A DNA stretch of 20,201 nucleotides, taken from a virus. The translations under genes and the position numbers were made by a program. The stretch spans positions 1 through 20,201 of the IMG/VR virus record IMGVR_UViG_3300020428_000125, one strand, 5' to 3'. How positions within the stretch are numbered: position 1 is the stretch's first letter; the number at the start of each line of letters is the position of its first letter. Under the pieces are notes generated by a model, which was not told the DNA's origin, made no database searches, and saw only the letters and a program-made list of their open reading frames with translations. This document shows, in pieces, positions 2,896 through 12,226 of this stretch.

Positions 2896-2898
2896 TTC

Positions 2899-2947
2899 GG
2901 CTACCTTGGTAAGACAAGCCCCATATAACTTGACGGAGTTAAAAATG
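2899..2947 (+). promoter_or_regulatory. Leader unit 1: hairpin, Shine-Dalgarno, ATG
   Basis: GGC(2899) TACC TTG GTAAGA CAA GCC(2920)CC can fold as a small RNA hairpin: GGC/GCC closing pairs, a one-sided TACC bulge, TTG/CAA inner pairs and a 6-base loop. An alternative fold pairs TACC with GGTA. It is followed by GACGGAG and, 6 bases after the GGAG, an ATG at 2945. The same arrangement is repeated immediately downstream. Folding was judged by eye; both stems are short, so the repeat is firmer than the structure. Confidence 0.5.
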
Positions 2948-3031
2948 GCTACCTTGCTAAAACACAAGCCCCGAAGGAGAAACGAGAATGTCCGAAGTAC
3001 AAGTAGAGGAGCAAGAATCAAATCCATATAA
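2945..3031 (+). CDS. Possible basic leader peptide (28 aa) overlapping the scaffold start
   Basis: An ATG with a well-placed GGAG (2935-2938) opens a 28-codon frame, MATLLKHKPRRRNENVRSTS..., that runs through the second hairpin and ends 44 bases inside the scaffold gene in another frame. It is strikingly basic (ten Lys/Arg/His in 28 residues). The frame upstream repeats the idea: unit 1 read in the same frame gives 'ATLVRQAP', unit 2 gives 'ATLLKHKP'. It may be a translated regulatory leader for the scaffold gene, a vestige of a duplicated gene start, or untranslated. The initiation signal is convincing; the function and even the existence of the product are not. Confidence 0.35.
   Translation: MATLLKHKPRRRNENVRSTSRGARIKSI
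2947..2990 (+). promoter_or_regulatory. Leader unit 2: hairpin and Shine-Dalgarno of the scaffold gene
   Basis: GGC(2947) TACC TTG CTAAAACA CAA GCC(2970)CC has the same stems and the same TACC bulge as unit 1, exactly 48 bases downstream, with a different 8-base loop. AAGGAG at 2974-2979 directly follows and serves the scaffold ATG at 2988. The hairpin abuts the ribosome binding site, so it could influence initiation; alternatively it only marks a duplicated 5' end. Confidence 0.5.
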
Positions 3032-3815
3032 CGCCAAGAAAGCTTGGCATCAACCAGATCCTCCTAGTAGAGGAGATGCAGATGGATTATTTTTTCAAGA
3101 ACAACAGGCTACCCCCGATGAAGAGGCCCCTGATGAAGCTCCTAAAAAACAAACCAACTATAAGAAAAGGTATGACGATCTAAAGAAACATTACGATCAA
3201 AGATTGGGAGAATTTAAACAAAGGGAAGAGGAGTTAGTAGCACAAGCTCAAACTGCTCAACCTGCTTATCAACCTCCAAAAACAGAGGAAGATATAGAAG
3301 CGTTTAAACAAGAGTATCCTGATTTGTATAATACTGTTGAGACTGTAGCTCATATACGAAGTCAACAAGAAGTAGCAAATCTTCAATCGCAACTTCAATC
3401 GTTACAACAACGTGAGTCTGAAGTAATGCGTAAAGAAGCTGAAACTACTTTGCGTGACAGACATCCTGATTTCGATGATATTAGGACATCTGATGGCTTC
3501 CATGATTGGGCAAAAGAACAGCCTGAACAAATACAAGATTGGGTATATAACAATCCTGATAATGTTGCTTTAGCATCAAAAGCTATTGATCTTTATAAGT
3601 TGGAAACAGGTACAGGACAAGCTCGATCTAAAAAACAGCCCAGAGCTAATAGCGGATCGGCAGCAGATATTGTTTCAACTAAAACAACTAATGTTGATCC
3701 TCAACAAGCTAAAATATGGACTGAACGGGAAATTGCCGCTATGTCTTTAGACCAGTTTGATAGACATCAAGAGGAAATCGAACAGGCCATGCAAGAAGGC
3801 AGAGTGGTTAAATAA
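2988..3815 (+). CDS. Capsid assembly scaffolding protein
   Basis: This 275-residue protein directly precedes the capsid gene, the usual place for the scaffold that templates procapsid assembly and is then removed. It is highly charged and almost all helical: an acidic/proline-rich N terminus with 'DEEAPDEAPKK', a predicted coiled coil near residues 55-85, a second Gln/Glu-rich coil near 119-150 ('QQEVANLQSQLQSLQQRE'), a conserved-looking 'RHPDFDDIRTSDGFHDWA' segment, a Ser/Gly/Lys-rich linker and a final helix 'IWTEREIAAMSLDQF' onward. A short C-terminal helix is the coat-binding part in known scaffolds. AAGGAG sits 8 bases before the ATG. No cysteine or membrane segment is seen. No protease domain is visible, so maturation must use another enzyme or none. 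Confidence 0.82.
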   Translation: MSEVQVEEQESNPYNAKKAWHQPDPPSRGDADGLFFQEQQATPDEEAPDEAPKKQTNYKKRYDDLKKHYDQRLGEFKQREEELVAQAQTAQPAYQPPKTEEDIEAFKQEYPDLYNTVETVAHIRSQQEVANLQSQLQSLQQRESEVMRKEAETTLRDRHPDFDDIRTSDGFHDWAKEQPEQIQDWVYNNPDNVALASKAIDLYKLETGTGQARSKKQPRANSGSAADIVSTKTTNVDPQQAKIWTEREIAAMSLDQFDRHQEEIEQAMQEGRVVK

Positions 3816-3844: not shown

Positions 3845-4834
3845 ATGGCTTATAATCAAAGCGACCAGTTTTTTGAACCGAGTACAGATACCAATGCTAA
3901 CTTTGGTAACTCTGTTGCGGGTCAAACAAACTCATTCTTTTTACCGAAAGTATATTCTAAACAGGTTCTCAACTTTTTCCGTAAAGCGTCAGTAGCAGAA
4001 GCTATTACGAATACGGATTATGCTGGTGAGATCTCTGGTTTTGGTGACACGGTAAGAGTAATTAAAGAACCTGAAATTACTGTTTATCAGTATGAAAGGG
4101 GACAAGATGTAACAGCAACTAAATTGACTGACCAAGAGGTTAGTCTGATTGTTGATACTGCAAACGCATTCAAGTTTATTGTAGACGATATTGAAACAAA
4201 TATGTCTCATGTTAACTTCCGTGACGTTGCAACTTCTTCAGCCGCTTACGCTTTGCGTGATGCTTTTGATGAAGGTGTAATTGCCACTATGTTTGCAGGT
4301 GTATCTGCTGCATCTCCGAACCATATTCTTGGTTCTGACAGTGCCACTGACTTGGCTGCTGGTACTTTTGACGGTACTGGTAATCTTGACGTTGGTTTCG
4401 GAACTAGTGAACACGATCCTATTGATGTTCTTTCTCACATGGCTCGTCTGCTTGATGAGTCTAATGTGCCGGAAGAAGGACGTTGGTTCCTAGCCAATCC
4501 TGAGTTCTATGAGCAGCTTGTACAAAGCAACTCTAAGCTCCTCAGTGTTGACTATAATGCTGGACAGGGTTCCATCCGTAATGGATTGGTAAGCTCTGGT
4601 AAGTTGCGTGGATTTGATATGTACAAGACTAATAACATTGCCTCTACTACTAATGCAGCAGGTAAATGTATAGCTGGTCATATTTCTTCAACGTGTACTG
4701 CACAAACTATCACTAGCACAGAGGTCATTCGTGATCCTGATAGCTTTGGTGATATTGTTCGTGGTCTTCATGTCTATGGCGCGAAAGTGCTGCGAGGTGA
4801 AGCATTGGTTTCTGCCTTCTATGGCATCGACTAA
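3845..4834 (+). CDS. Major capsid protein
   Basis: The 329-residue product follows the scaffold and carries motifs I recognise from podovirus capsid proteins: 'KVYSKQVLNFFRKASVAEAI' (residues about 35-54), 'YAGEISGFGDTVRV', 'FKFIVDDIE' with VDDIE at 113-117, and 'DIVRGLHVYGAKVLRGEALV' close to the C terminus. An HK97-type fold is expected from family knowledge, not shown. GGGAG at 3831 precedes the ATG. Codon use differs from neighbours: nine of twelve Arg codons are CGT, where neighbours favour AGA, and C-ending codons for Phe and Asn are common, as in a very highly expressed gene. A strong terminator-like hairpin follows 15 bases after the stop. No extra N-terminal propeptide is evident. 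Confidence 0.9.
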   Translation: MAYNQSDQFFEPSTDTNANFGNSVAGQTNSFFLPKVYSKQVLNFFRKASVAEAITNTDYAGEISGFGDTVRVIKEPEITVYQYERGQDVTATKLTDQEVSLIVDTANAFKFIVDDIETNMSHVNFRDVATSSAAYALRDAFDEGVIATMFAGVSAASPNHILGSDSATDLAAGTFDGTGNLDVGFGTSEHDPIDVLSHMARLLDESNVPEEGRWFLANPEFYEQLVQSNSKLLSVDYNAGQGSIRNGLVSSGKLRGFDMYKTNNIASTTNAAGKCIAGHISSTCTAQTITSTEVIRDPDSFGDIVRGLHVYGAKVLRGEALVSAFYGID

Positions 4835-4888: not shown

Positions 4889-5089
4889 ATGGCTACAGTA
4901 GGTTCTGAAGAAAGTCCCTTAATGATTAAAGGACAGCGTAAAGGTAAGGTTCTTGGCATGACAGGAAGTTTTTATAAACCTGAAAATAAAGAAAAGTATG
5001 ACGAAAATTATGATAGAATTTTTGCAAATAAATCAGAATTTGATATAGCTAGATTAAAATCTAAAACATTTTCAATGGAGCAAGATTAA
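4889..5089 (+). CDS. Small protein (66 aa), unknown function
   Basis: MATVGSEESPLMIKGQRKGK... is 66 residues, rich in Lys, Glu and Tyr, soluble, with no membrane segment. The frame is open to an ATG at 4862, but that codon lies inside the terminator hairpin with no ribosome binding site, while the ATG at 4889 has AGGAG (4879-4883) at proper distance, so 4889 is chosen. The placement just after the capsid gene could fit a head decoration or head completion protein, but nothing in the sequence proves it. The N-terminal third is Gly/Ser/Lys-rich, and the rest is likely helical ('NKEKYDENYDRIFANKSEFD'). Confidence 0.68.
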   Translation: MATVGSEESPLMIKGQRKGKVLGMTGSFYKPENKEKYDENYDRIFANKSEFDIARLKSKTFSMEQD

Positions 5090-9835: not shown

Positions 9836-11041
9836 ATGGCGTCATTAGGTAAGTCTACTTCCCCGATTGGTGGGGTTTTAAAAGCTACGGCAAGTGGGTC
9901 AATTGCCAATGGTAAAGCTTGTATTTTGAATTCTGACGGAACGGTATCACAAGCGGCTTTAACTGAGGGAATGGCAATAAACTTTTGTACAAACTCTGAT
10001 TTGTATACATATTTCTTAGCATCTCCATACGATGCGTCTACCACAGTAGATGGAAGTTATTATGCTTCTGCTCAAAATGGTAATTATCGTTCGACTACTG
10101 GTTCACAGCTCAGCGCAAATACAGACTCATGTCAAGACATTAGCTTTAAGTCCGACGGCACAAAGTTTTTTGTTTCAGATTATGGTGCTGACCACACTGA
10201 AGGGTGGATAGGTGAGTACACACTCAGCACAGCTTGGGATATTAGAACTCTATCGTTTGTTGATAGGTACGACATTTCGAGCAAAAATGTTTATCCGTAT
10301 GGACTATTCGTTAAGCCAGATGGAACAGAGGCTTACATAGCTGGTTATGGGGCTGGCGATGATTTAGATCAGTGGACTTTGAGTACAGCTTGGGACATCT
10401 CTACGGCAAGTTTTACGAGAACTCACGCTGTTACAGAAACTGATGAGTATAGAGGGGGCATAGCTTTTAAACCTGATGGCACAAAAATGTATATTGCAGG
10501 AGGCATCTATGGTAATCCCGACACTCACGACAAGGTATACGTGTATAGCTTGAGCACTGCATGGGATATTTCTTCGGAAACTTATGACAGTGTTGCATTA
10601 GATTTCTCGTCGTATGGAGATATGATACACGCCATACTTTTTAATAATGACGGAACTAAGCTGTATCTGTGGGACCACAGTGGACAGAACATGATTATTT
10701 ATTCGATGAGCACTGCATACGACTTATCAACAGCTAGTTTTGTCTCAGAAGTAAATACCTACACTAACCAAATTTTGGGAATGGCTTGGGGTGCTGCCGG
10801 AAGTGCAAATAACACAAACTTTATAGGCATATCTGACGGGGCATACACCAATGGTCAAACAGCAAAAATTAAAGTCATCGGGGCAATAGACACTAACCAG
10901 TCTGGGCTGACACCCAACGCCTTGTGTTATACAAATGATGCAGGAACTATTGTGTCGAGTGCAGGTGGGGCCACAGTAGGACTAGCTTTATCTCCGACTA
11001 GTGTATTAATCAAAGGCCCCTACGACATGTTGTTTGATTAG
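9836..11041 (+). CDS. Beta-propeller virion protein 1, probable receptor-binding protein
   Basis: A 401-residue protein made of three parts. Residues 1-40 ('LKATASGSIANGKACILNSD', then GTVSQAA) and 351-401 ('IDTNQSGLTPNALCYTN', ending 'SVLIKGPYDMLFD') match the next protein closely. Between them are four to five propeller-blade repeats of about 50 residues, with pattern F-K-x-DGTK-x-Y, then Y-x-LSTAWDIS-x-x-SF. Such blades form beta-propellers of the NHL/YVTN type, which often bind sugars or proteins. The conserved ends may be one beta domain split by the propeller, acting as a virion anchor. AAGGA precedes the ATG. It contains no enzyme motif or signal peptide. Codons end in G/C more often than in the ejection genes, hinting at transfer. 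The receptor-binding role is inferred from position before a fibre-assembly chaperone-like gene. Confidence 0.62.
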   Translation: MASLGKSTSPIGGVLKATASGSIANGKACILNSDGTVSQAALTEGMAINFCTNSDLYTYFLASPYDASTTVDGSYYASAQNGNYRSTTGSQLSANTDSCQDISFKSDGTKFFVSDYGADHTEGWIGEYTLSTAWDIRTLSFVDRYDISSKNVYPYGLFVKPDGTEAYIAGYGAGDDLDQWTLSTAWDISTASFTRTHAVTETDEYRGGIAFKPDGTKMYIAGGIYGNPDTHDKVYVYSLSTAWDISSETYDSVALDFSSYGDMIHAILFNNDGTKLYLWDHSGQNMIIYSMSTAYDLSTASFVSEVNTYTNQILGMAWGAAGSANNTNFIGISDGAYTNGQTAKIKVIGAIDTNQSGLTPNALCYTNDAGTIVSSAGGATVGLALSPTSVLIKGPYDMLFD

Positions 11042-11053
11042 AGGAGATAAAAT

Positions 11054-12226
11054 ATGCCAGTCTTAGGAGTAGGAAGTGGAGTTGTTGGGGGGATTTACCA
11101 AGCGACAGCTAGTGGTGCGATAGCTCACGGCAAAGCTTGTATTATTAATTCTGACGGGACAGTAACACAGGCTGCGGCAGTGGCTGGTGGAACTCTTCAT
11201 ATTCAGCATTATTATTATATATACTCGTATTCTTTAGCAACTCCTTTTAATACGTCTGCCACAACAGAGGGTACTTTTTACGACTCAAATAGTTCTTCTA
11301 GTTATGATTTCTATAATAATCACAGTGCCTCATCCTCAAATTTTAATGGTGCTCATAGCTGGAGCAGTGACGGTACAAAGTTTTTTACTGCTGACAGTAA
11401 TGCGGCAAATTCAAAAATACACGAATTTACAGCAACCACTGGTTTTGACGTTACAACGCTGAGTTATGTTGATGCGTATACTATTGGAGGTAAACACACA
11501 TACCCAAGAGCAATGGATTTTAAACCTGACGGAACAGAAGTTTACGTATCCGGTAGGTTCGATTCAAACGTACATCAATGGACTTTGAGTACAGCATGGG
11601 ATATTTCTACTGCGAGTTTTACAAGAACATTTGATACAACAAGAGATGATAATCAACAGGGGCTTCGGTTTAAACCTGATGGTACTAAAATGTACGTTAC
11701 TGACCGTACTAATGACCAAGTAGACCAGTACACATTAAGCACAGCATGGGACATTTCAACTGCAAGTTTTGATAGCGTTAGCTTAGATGTTTCCTCGTAT
11801 GATGCACTTCTAAGAGATGTTGTTTTTAATGATGATGGTACTGAAGTGTTTATTGCGGGTGGGAGTAGTCCATCTATAATTGATTACACGTTAAGTACTG
11901 CATACAACCTATCAACAGCTAGTTTTAGAAGTGAAACTAACCCTGGTGGTACTATCCCTTACGGCATTTCTTTTAGTGACGGTGGAAACTGCAACAATGA
12001 CAATTTTATAGGAATCTCTCAGGGTGCGGTATCAAATGGTGAAGTAGCCTCAATTAAAGTAATCGGAGGAATTGATACAAACCAGTCAGGATTAACCCCA
12101 AATGCTCTTTGCTACACAAACAATTCAGGAACTATTGTTTCAGCATCGGGTGGTGCAACAGTAGGGTTGGCTTTGTCACCAACCTCAGTGTTGATAAAGG
12201 GCCCATACGATATGTTATTCGACTAA
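11054..12226 (+). CDS. Beta-propeller virion protein 2, paralogue of the preceding protein
   Basis: A 390-residue paralogue with the same plan: conserved N terminus ('YQATASGAIAHGKACIINSD', GTVTQAA), blades with 'FKPDGTKMYV' and 'YTLSTAWDISTASF', and a C-terminal segment (340-390) identical to protein 1 at 47 of 51 residues. The segment between residues 45 and 95 is Tyr/Ser/Asn-rich and differs strongly from protein 1, and loops between blades differ in length, as expected if the two bind different ligands. AGGAG lies before the ATG, 12 bases after the previous stop. The 51-codon C-terminal match is almost saturated with silent changes, so the pair is not a recent tandem copy. Alternative role: head-surface decoration rather than tail adhesion. 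Confidence 0.62.
   Translation: MPVLGVGSGVVGGIYQATASGAIAHGKACIINSDGTVTQAAAVAGGTLHIQHYYYIYSYSLATPFNTSATTEGTFYDSNSSSSYDFYNNHSASSSNFNGAHSWSSDGTKFFTADSNAANSKIHEFTATTGFDVTTLSYVDAYTIGGKHTYPRAMDFKPDGTEVYVSGRFDSNVHQWTLSTAWDISTASFTRTFDTTRDDNQQGLRFKPDGTKMYVTDRTNDQVDQYTLSTAWDISTASFDSVSLDVSSYDALLRDVVFNDDGTEVFIAGGSSPSIIDYTLSTAYNLSTASFRSETNPGGTIPYGISFSDGGNCNNDNFIGISQGAVSNGEVASIKVIGGIDTNQSGLTPNALCYTNNSGTIVSASGGATVGLALSPTSVLIKGPYDMLFD

Follow-up and report, generated by a model that had tools for sequence, protein, structure and literature searches.

The window, that is the whole stretch of DNA that was analysed (20,201 nt, positions 1 to 20,201 of the IMG/VR virus record IMGVR_UViG_3300020428_000125), carries on its plus strand a gene for a 275-aa protein (2988..3815; PHROG 13678, an entry without function) directly 5' of the major capsid protein gene (3845..4834, plus strand; PHROG 267 major head protein, E 1.2e-69). 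The 275-aa gene is homologous to the gene preceding the coat gene in 22 isolate phages, and from this homology and its position its product is regarded as a putative scaffold protein. The AF2 model of the protein (pLDDT 77.7, pTM 0.40) is mostly helical, and this model as well as the position before a P22-type coat gene fit a P22-type scaffold. Fold and profile searches with the scaffold revealed no solved relative, and no recognisable RNA-binding domain was found in it. The true start of the gene consists of the Shine-Dalgarno (SD) sequence GAAGGAG (2973..2979, plus strand) and the ATG at 2988.

The two leader units and their pairing

The leader of the putative scaffold gene contains two units on the plus strand, unit 1 (2899-2922) and unit 2 (2947-2972), which start 48 nt apart. 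The segments GGCTACCTTG and CAAGCCCC are the same in both units and the loops differ (GTAAGA in unit 1, CTAAAACA in unit 2), which bears out the description given in an earlier note on this DNA of two units with common flanks and differing loops. The unit pattern occurs twice in the whole window, both times on the plus strand, and the reversed-pattern control gave no occurrence across the window. In the leader, no sense-strand terminator (GC-rich stem plus T run) was found and promoter-like sites (sigma-70 hexamers) were at shuffle level.

Comparison with related phages, together with the covariance model R1 described below, placed both units as modules U1 and U2 in a single domain (2896..2975, plus strand, as are all its parts) held by the cross-pairing stems P1 and P3. 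The 5' strand of P1, UUCGG (2896..2900), pairs with CCGAA (2971-2975), and this pairing covaries in relatives. The internal-loop strand CUAC of unit 1 (2901..2904) faces CC at 2969-2970, which forms one segment with the 3' strand of P1 (2969..2975). Stem P2a (2905..2918) is formed by CUUG (2905-2908) and CAAG (2915-2918) around the loop GUAAGA, with P2 covariation across families; alternatively, its strands pair with those of unit 2 in a nested form. The next segment (2919..2924) contains the internal-loop CC (2919-2920) and the 5' strand of P3, CCAU (2921-2924), which covaries with AUGG (2945-2948). In unit 2, the strand CUAC (2949..2952) faces CC 2919-2920 and is followed by P2b (2953..2968), composed of CUUG (2953-2956) and CAAG (2965-2968) with the loop CUAAAACA. 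Between the units lies a hairpin (2926..2941; stem 2926-2931:2936-2941, loop GACG 2932-2935) whose stem has a pair probability of 1.0 (ViennaRNA). In relatives this hairpin reads ACTC-GACG-GAGT, TTTAAA-GACG-TTTAAA or TCT-GACG-AGA, the loop being constant and the stem varied.

This architecture corrects several points of the earlier note. An SD and an ATG had been assigned to each unit, which holds for the second unit only. The GACGGAG at 2932-2938, taken as an SD, is actually the GACG loop and the 3' arm of the hairpin, in which the loop is constant and the stem varies; the ATG at 2945-2947 belongs to stem P3 (CCAU/AUGG). The suggested remnant of a gene start left by deletion is not supported, since its SD and ATG are part of a conserved hairpin. 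The proposed stem register, GGC/GCC plus TTG/CAA, was slightly off; comparison gives GG/CC between the units, CUUG/CAAG, and CUAC facing CC. The pairing of unit 1 with unit 2 was absent from that note, as was the third copy described below.

In the window family, P1 changes from UUCGG/CCGAA (window) to UACGG/CCGUA, UAAGG/CCUUA and AUGG/CCAU in relatives. Among 28 non-redundant leaders, 73% of the P1 flank cells and 67% of those of P3 were paired, values reached in 0 of 2000 shuffles, and 88.2% of the cells were paired in the pair table of alignment A1 (slid controls, at most 48%). Two self-closed hairpins were rejected for this family, self-closure of U1 and U2 being 31% and 52%, at or below shuffles. 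The CUUG/CAAG stems are constant within the window family and are therefore uninformative on pairing there. Compensatory changes of the kind that would support an RNA element were seen in P1 and P3 within this family and in P2 across families. A four-way junction and a nested long hairpin have similar calculated energies for the window leader (-15.4 vs -16.1); a single double change in locus L197 (CUUG1:CAAG2, AAAG1:CUUU2) is compatible with the nested form alone, and this one change favours the nested form.

Thermodynamic folding by itself fails to predict the conserved fold. For the naked leader, ViennaRNA preferred another fold by about 10 kcal/mol, and the window leader folded only slightly better than shuffles (z -1.43). 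As the energy model prefers other pairs, the conserved fold must gain its stability elsewhere, for example from a bound protein or a tertiary loop structure.

The module in related phages

The general module emerged when leaders of the homologous gene were compared among 22 isolate phages and IMG/VR families that had been recruited by three different scaffold proteins. It consists of P1 ending in G-C, a 4x2 internal loop CUAC/CC, and P2, which opens with a C-G or U-A (pyrimidine-purine) pair. One loop strand is CUAC in 21 of 26 diverse modules, the others having AUAC, CCAC or ACAC, and the opposite strand is CC, rarely CA or AC. Modules of this kind lie upstream of the gene in a large, mostly marine group of phages, which includes three large IMG/VR families as well as phages infecting SAR11, SAR116, Roseobacter, Rhizobium, Vibrio and Aeromonas. 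Examples are ACAAG-CUAC-CUUC...GAAG-CC-CUUGU in HTVC103P, UUGGG-CUAC-CCGUAUACGG-CC-CCCAA in CRP-235 and UUAG-AUAC-CGUAC...GUACG-AC-CUAA in CHOED; in CRP-9, P2 is CCAGGG/CCCUGG. In HMO-2011, CRP-345, CRP-1, CRP-212, phiM6 and RHph_N3_13, P2 instead joins the two units (nested form), as in UCACU:GGUGG, CUAACU:GGUUAG, CCAUC:GGUGG and CCACGA:UUGUGG; pairs of this HMO class were counted from exact segments. Slicky01 is a doubtful case among the 22 isolates, with at best a reduced version (UAC facing A). The earlier note's view of a maintained RNA element is supported by covarying partners, by recurrence at the same gene across many phages and by the location at the SD.

In the 26 modules of the single-module and window-type classes, which were picked by eye so that the paired fraction is inflated, 89.8% of positions were paired vs 62.9% in shuffles, with 57 vs 18.4 double changes and a covariation of 0.582 vs 0.175 (all 0 of 500 shuffles); none of the slid registers exceeded 49% paired. 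Because of this inflation, the independent controls (descriptor, codons, model) weigh more. A strict descriptor applied to 378 loci (1.97 Mb) detected 306 modules on the sense strand, 264 of them in the 200 nt upstream of the gene and 42 at other places, as against 0 on the antisense strand and 3 in shuffled sequence. The model R1, which was built from alignment A5 without any window sequence, found exactly three modules in the window, all sense, at 3104-3133 (E 1.9e-6), 2944-2975 (E 5.8e-6) and 2896-2925 (E 1.2e-4); the next match (E 0.29) lay on the opposite strand.

The unit pattern is present in at least 120 IMG/VR contigs, nearly all of those listed having two tandem copies followed by an SD and an ATG. 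In 16 complete isolate genomes, the strong model matches all lay at this gene, with the sole exception of gp40 in HTVC115P. No model match was obtained at the scaffold leaders of HMO-2011, CRP-1 and Slicky01; the nested form of the first two is not covered by the model. The other, weaker model matches in IMG/VR genomes were situated in coding sequence or on the antisense strand and were disregarded. When 84,980 bacterial and archaeal genomes were scanned, single sites turned up at 66 loci, about the number expected by chance by our estimate. Two MAG contigs, L204 (Maricaulis) and L223 (Sphingobacteriales), showed the full phage arrangement with all three modules. Since the phage scaffold region is present on both, these contigs appear to be phage sequence that was binned with bacterial genomes. 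No relevant match among phage records was obtained by BLAST with the leader, the element being too short and variable.

The sequence (TAC)GGCTACCTTG is the reverse complement of the 16S 3' region, which we take to be the 1492R primer site. An antisense interaction with 16S rRNA was rejected, as outside the window family the 10-mer is lost (GCUACCUUC, GGCUACUCAC, GAUACCGUAC) and loop and pairing are kept.

Several variations of the arrangement were observed. An extra self-closed module, GAUAAGG-CUAC-UUCGAAAGAA-CC-CCUUAU, lies 5' of the tandem pair in L025 (~4910-4945) and likewise in L011, L034, L075, L104, L116 and L176, so that up to four modules occur per mRNA in some relatives. In HTVC115P, a module UGGAG-AUAC-CCAU..AUGG-CA-CUCCA (24554-24584, minus strand; L454 2055-2085; E 1.3e-4) is located 16 nt before gp40, which encodes a very large protein, and adjoins its SD; the same control, and its binder, may thus reach a second gene. 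In phiM6 (L277 2250-2460) and RHph_N3_13 (L284 2310-2460), an apparent second nested element was seen by eye between the scaffold and capsid genes, in phiM6 with the sequence AAAGA-CUAC-CCAUACUAAUUAG-CC-CCCUC..GAGGG-AUAC-CUAAAUACUAUGG-CC-UCUUU. HMO-2011 and CRP phages possess a 230-260 nt leader before the coat gene (L273 2270-2506, L275 2230-2488, L278 2200-2461) that contains a promoter resembling sigma-70 sites, TTGACA..TATAACTAT, as well as repeats of GGCCC / GCACCC blocks with a structured appearance.

Module 3 within the coding sequence

Module 3 of the window, CAGG-CUAC-CC..GG-CC-CCUG (3105..3132, plus strand; R1 E 1.9e-6), is situated about 120 nt into the putative scaffold coding sequence, so that together with the two leader modules it flanks the gene start. 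The 42 sense modules found elsewhere by the descriptor are mostly such a third module, about 110-150 nt after the ATG. A coding-region module was present in 106 of 137 genes, as compared with 3.7 of 137 after synonymous codons had been redrawn from each gene's own usage. Within the module, the second Ala is encoded by GCC in 88% of cases vs 8% elsewhere in the same genes, Thr by ACC in 89% vs 11%, and Pro by CCT in 95% vs 53%. Moreover, the residues before and after the motif covary such that P1 tends to stay paired (E with Q, Q with D/E/V, K with S), the combination of K with E being an exception. Judged by this codon usage in the relatives, the coding-region copy is under selection as RNA. 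The module encodes scaffold residues 40-48, which lie within a predicted disordered stretch (28-53), and the RNA constraint would therefore be cheap for the protein. The coding-region copy is a clean case of RNA structure constraining protein sequence, in which flanking residues co-change and base pairs are kept.

The modest folding of the window leader (z -1.43) might be taken to mean that the repeats arose by chance or at the DNA level and have no RNA function; this is contradicted by the covariation, by the strand asymmetry of 306 to 0 and by the synonymous-codon selection, and we consider it extremely improbable.

The ribosome-binding site and the candidate ligand

In the window, the first three bases of the SD (GAA) fall within P1. 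Among 76 distinct window-type leaders, P1 ends no more than 4 nt before the SD core or 4 nt into it in 75, the remaining one having a value of 8 nt. In the HTVC103P family, 76 of 80 loci have a second module whose P1 overlaps GGAG or directly adjoins it. A conserved, strand-specific, covarying RNA at the SD is thus well supported by the comparisons. Phage autogenous translational operators located at the ribosome-binding site are known, for instance those of T4 gp32 and gp43 (PMC3014915), and in having a conserved RNA structure at that site the element described here agrees with them. RNase cleavage or protection sites that set the lifetime of the scaffold mRNA would also account for multiple modules on a single transcript, in the leader as well as in the coding sequence, and action near SDs is known for RNases encoded by phages, T4 RegB for example (PMC3014915). 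In that case, the link between P1 and the SD would be a coincidence, and one would expect to see a nuclease site on a larger number of phage mRNAs; such a processing or stability element is in our opinion improbable.

The reading we prefer, to which we give a roughly even chance, is that the modules together form a cis-acting operator of the putative scaffold gene, and that this RNA shuts over the SD once it is occupied by a trans factor, for which the scaffold is the most probable candidate. The two leader modules would pair into one domain with the closing stem P1 ending at or in the SD, and the conserved internal loops before and after the gene start would be what the factor recognises. The bound factor would hold P1 closed and block 30S access, so that scaffold translation would fall when the factor is in excess. 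The likeliest factor would be free scaffold protein, and such autogenous control would match the amount of scaffold to the progress of head assembly. That the effect is repression, that the ligand is a protein and that this protein is the scaffold are inferences. The earlier proposal that the element tunes the scaffold operon is supported as far as sequence can show, with an effect on expression that is presumed.

The scaffold is favoured as the binder since the module is nearly restricted to this gene, the hosts are very different and autogenous control of the scaffold is known from P22. The long helix 58-90 of the AF2 model starts with the invariant residues K60-R61 and D64, and K60-R61 provide a weak hint that the gene product may bind its own RNA. 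The homologue of RHph_TM3_14A, a single data point, has QHRY at the K60-R61 site and no model module at its leader. The scaffold sequences diverge to about 24-30% identity and the loop hardly changes, which would fit the same operator with another binder, namely the capsid protein, another phage regulator or a conserved host RNA-binding or ribosomal protein. The module at HTVC115P gp40 and the related element that seems to precede the capsid gene in the rhizobiophages phiM6 and RHph_N3_13 point in the same direction. However, the module is almost confined to scaffold mRNA, and a host partner would need to be strongly conserved from SAR11 to Rhizobium, Vibrio and Aeromonas; we consider another binder less likely. 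A riboswitch or ion sensor, in which tandem modules bind a small molecule and P1 closes over the SD, would account for the compact conserved loop core, the tandem arrangement and the SD-linked stem. However, the regulated gene is a virion assembly gene and not a metabolic or transport gene, as the context of a riboswitch would demand, a copy in the coding sequence and a freely changing copy number and topology are unusual for an aptamer, and no Rfam riboswitch was matched, which makes this explanation very improbable.

An operator bound by the scaffold would resemble the situation in P22, in which the scaffolding protein (gene 8) is under autogenous post-transcriptional control. We know of no comparable mapped RNA target in P22. 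In both systems the coat gene is of the P22 type and the genes follow one another in the order portal region, scaffold, coat; scaffold supply is tied to assembly after transcription in P22, and the same is proposed here. The likeness to P22 gp8 is one of gene position and order. The P22 scaffold is recycled (PMC9576892). In the T4/RB69 gene 43 and gene 32 operators, the product of the gene binds RNA structures located 5' of the start, with a contact that extends to the ribosome-binding site (PMC3014915). In contrast to the gp43 operator (one hairpin, UAAC loop) and the gp32 operator (pseudoknot), a repeated internal-loop module is used here, a copy of it lies inside the coding sequence, and there is no Rfam sequence or model match. 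The candidate RNAs manA, wcaG and PhotoRC-II are also structured cis RNAs in marine phage or metagenome DNA, but they are tied to cyanophage metabolic or photosynthesis genes (PMC2864571), unlike the module described here, which gave no Rfam match.

At the gathering score, no Rfam 15 family matched the window or any of 15 isolate loci, in agreement with the earlier note, which knew of no such family, and relaxed Rfam searches of three leaders gave chance-level matches alone. The main text of PMC9038755, on HMO-2011-type phage genomes, does not mention intergenic elements, promoters, RNA motifs or hairpins, and no description of the element was found in searches of open-access literature. We regard the RNA element as new and its probable kind, a phage translational operator, as known, its modular build being unusual. 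As a tentative generalisation, which we rate somewhat short of an even chance, the scaffolds of a large marine and soil podovirus group may sense capsid assembly and repress their own translation through a CUAC/CC module present one to four times per mRNA in leader and reading frame. If true, one of the dominant ocean virus groups would gain a defined RNA family, and the long-standing question of how scaffold synthesis is coupled to head assembly in dsDNA phages would become directly testable with a 30-nt RNA.

Elsewhere in the window, a putative fibre or adhesin gene is duplicated in tandem: two neighbouring genes of about 400 aa (9836-11041 and 11054-12226) have common N-terminal and C-terminal blocks and both end in SVLIKGPYDMLFD.
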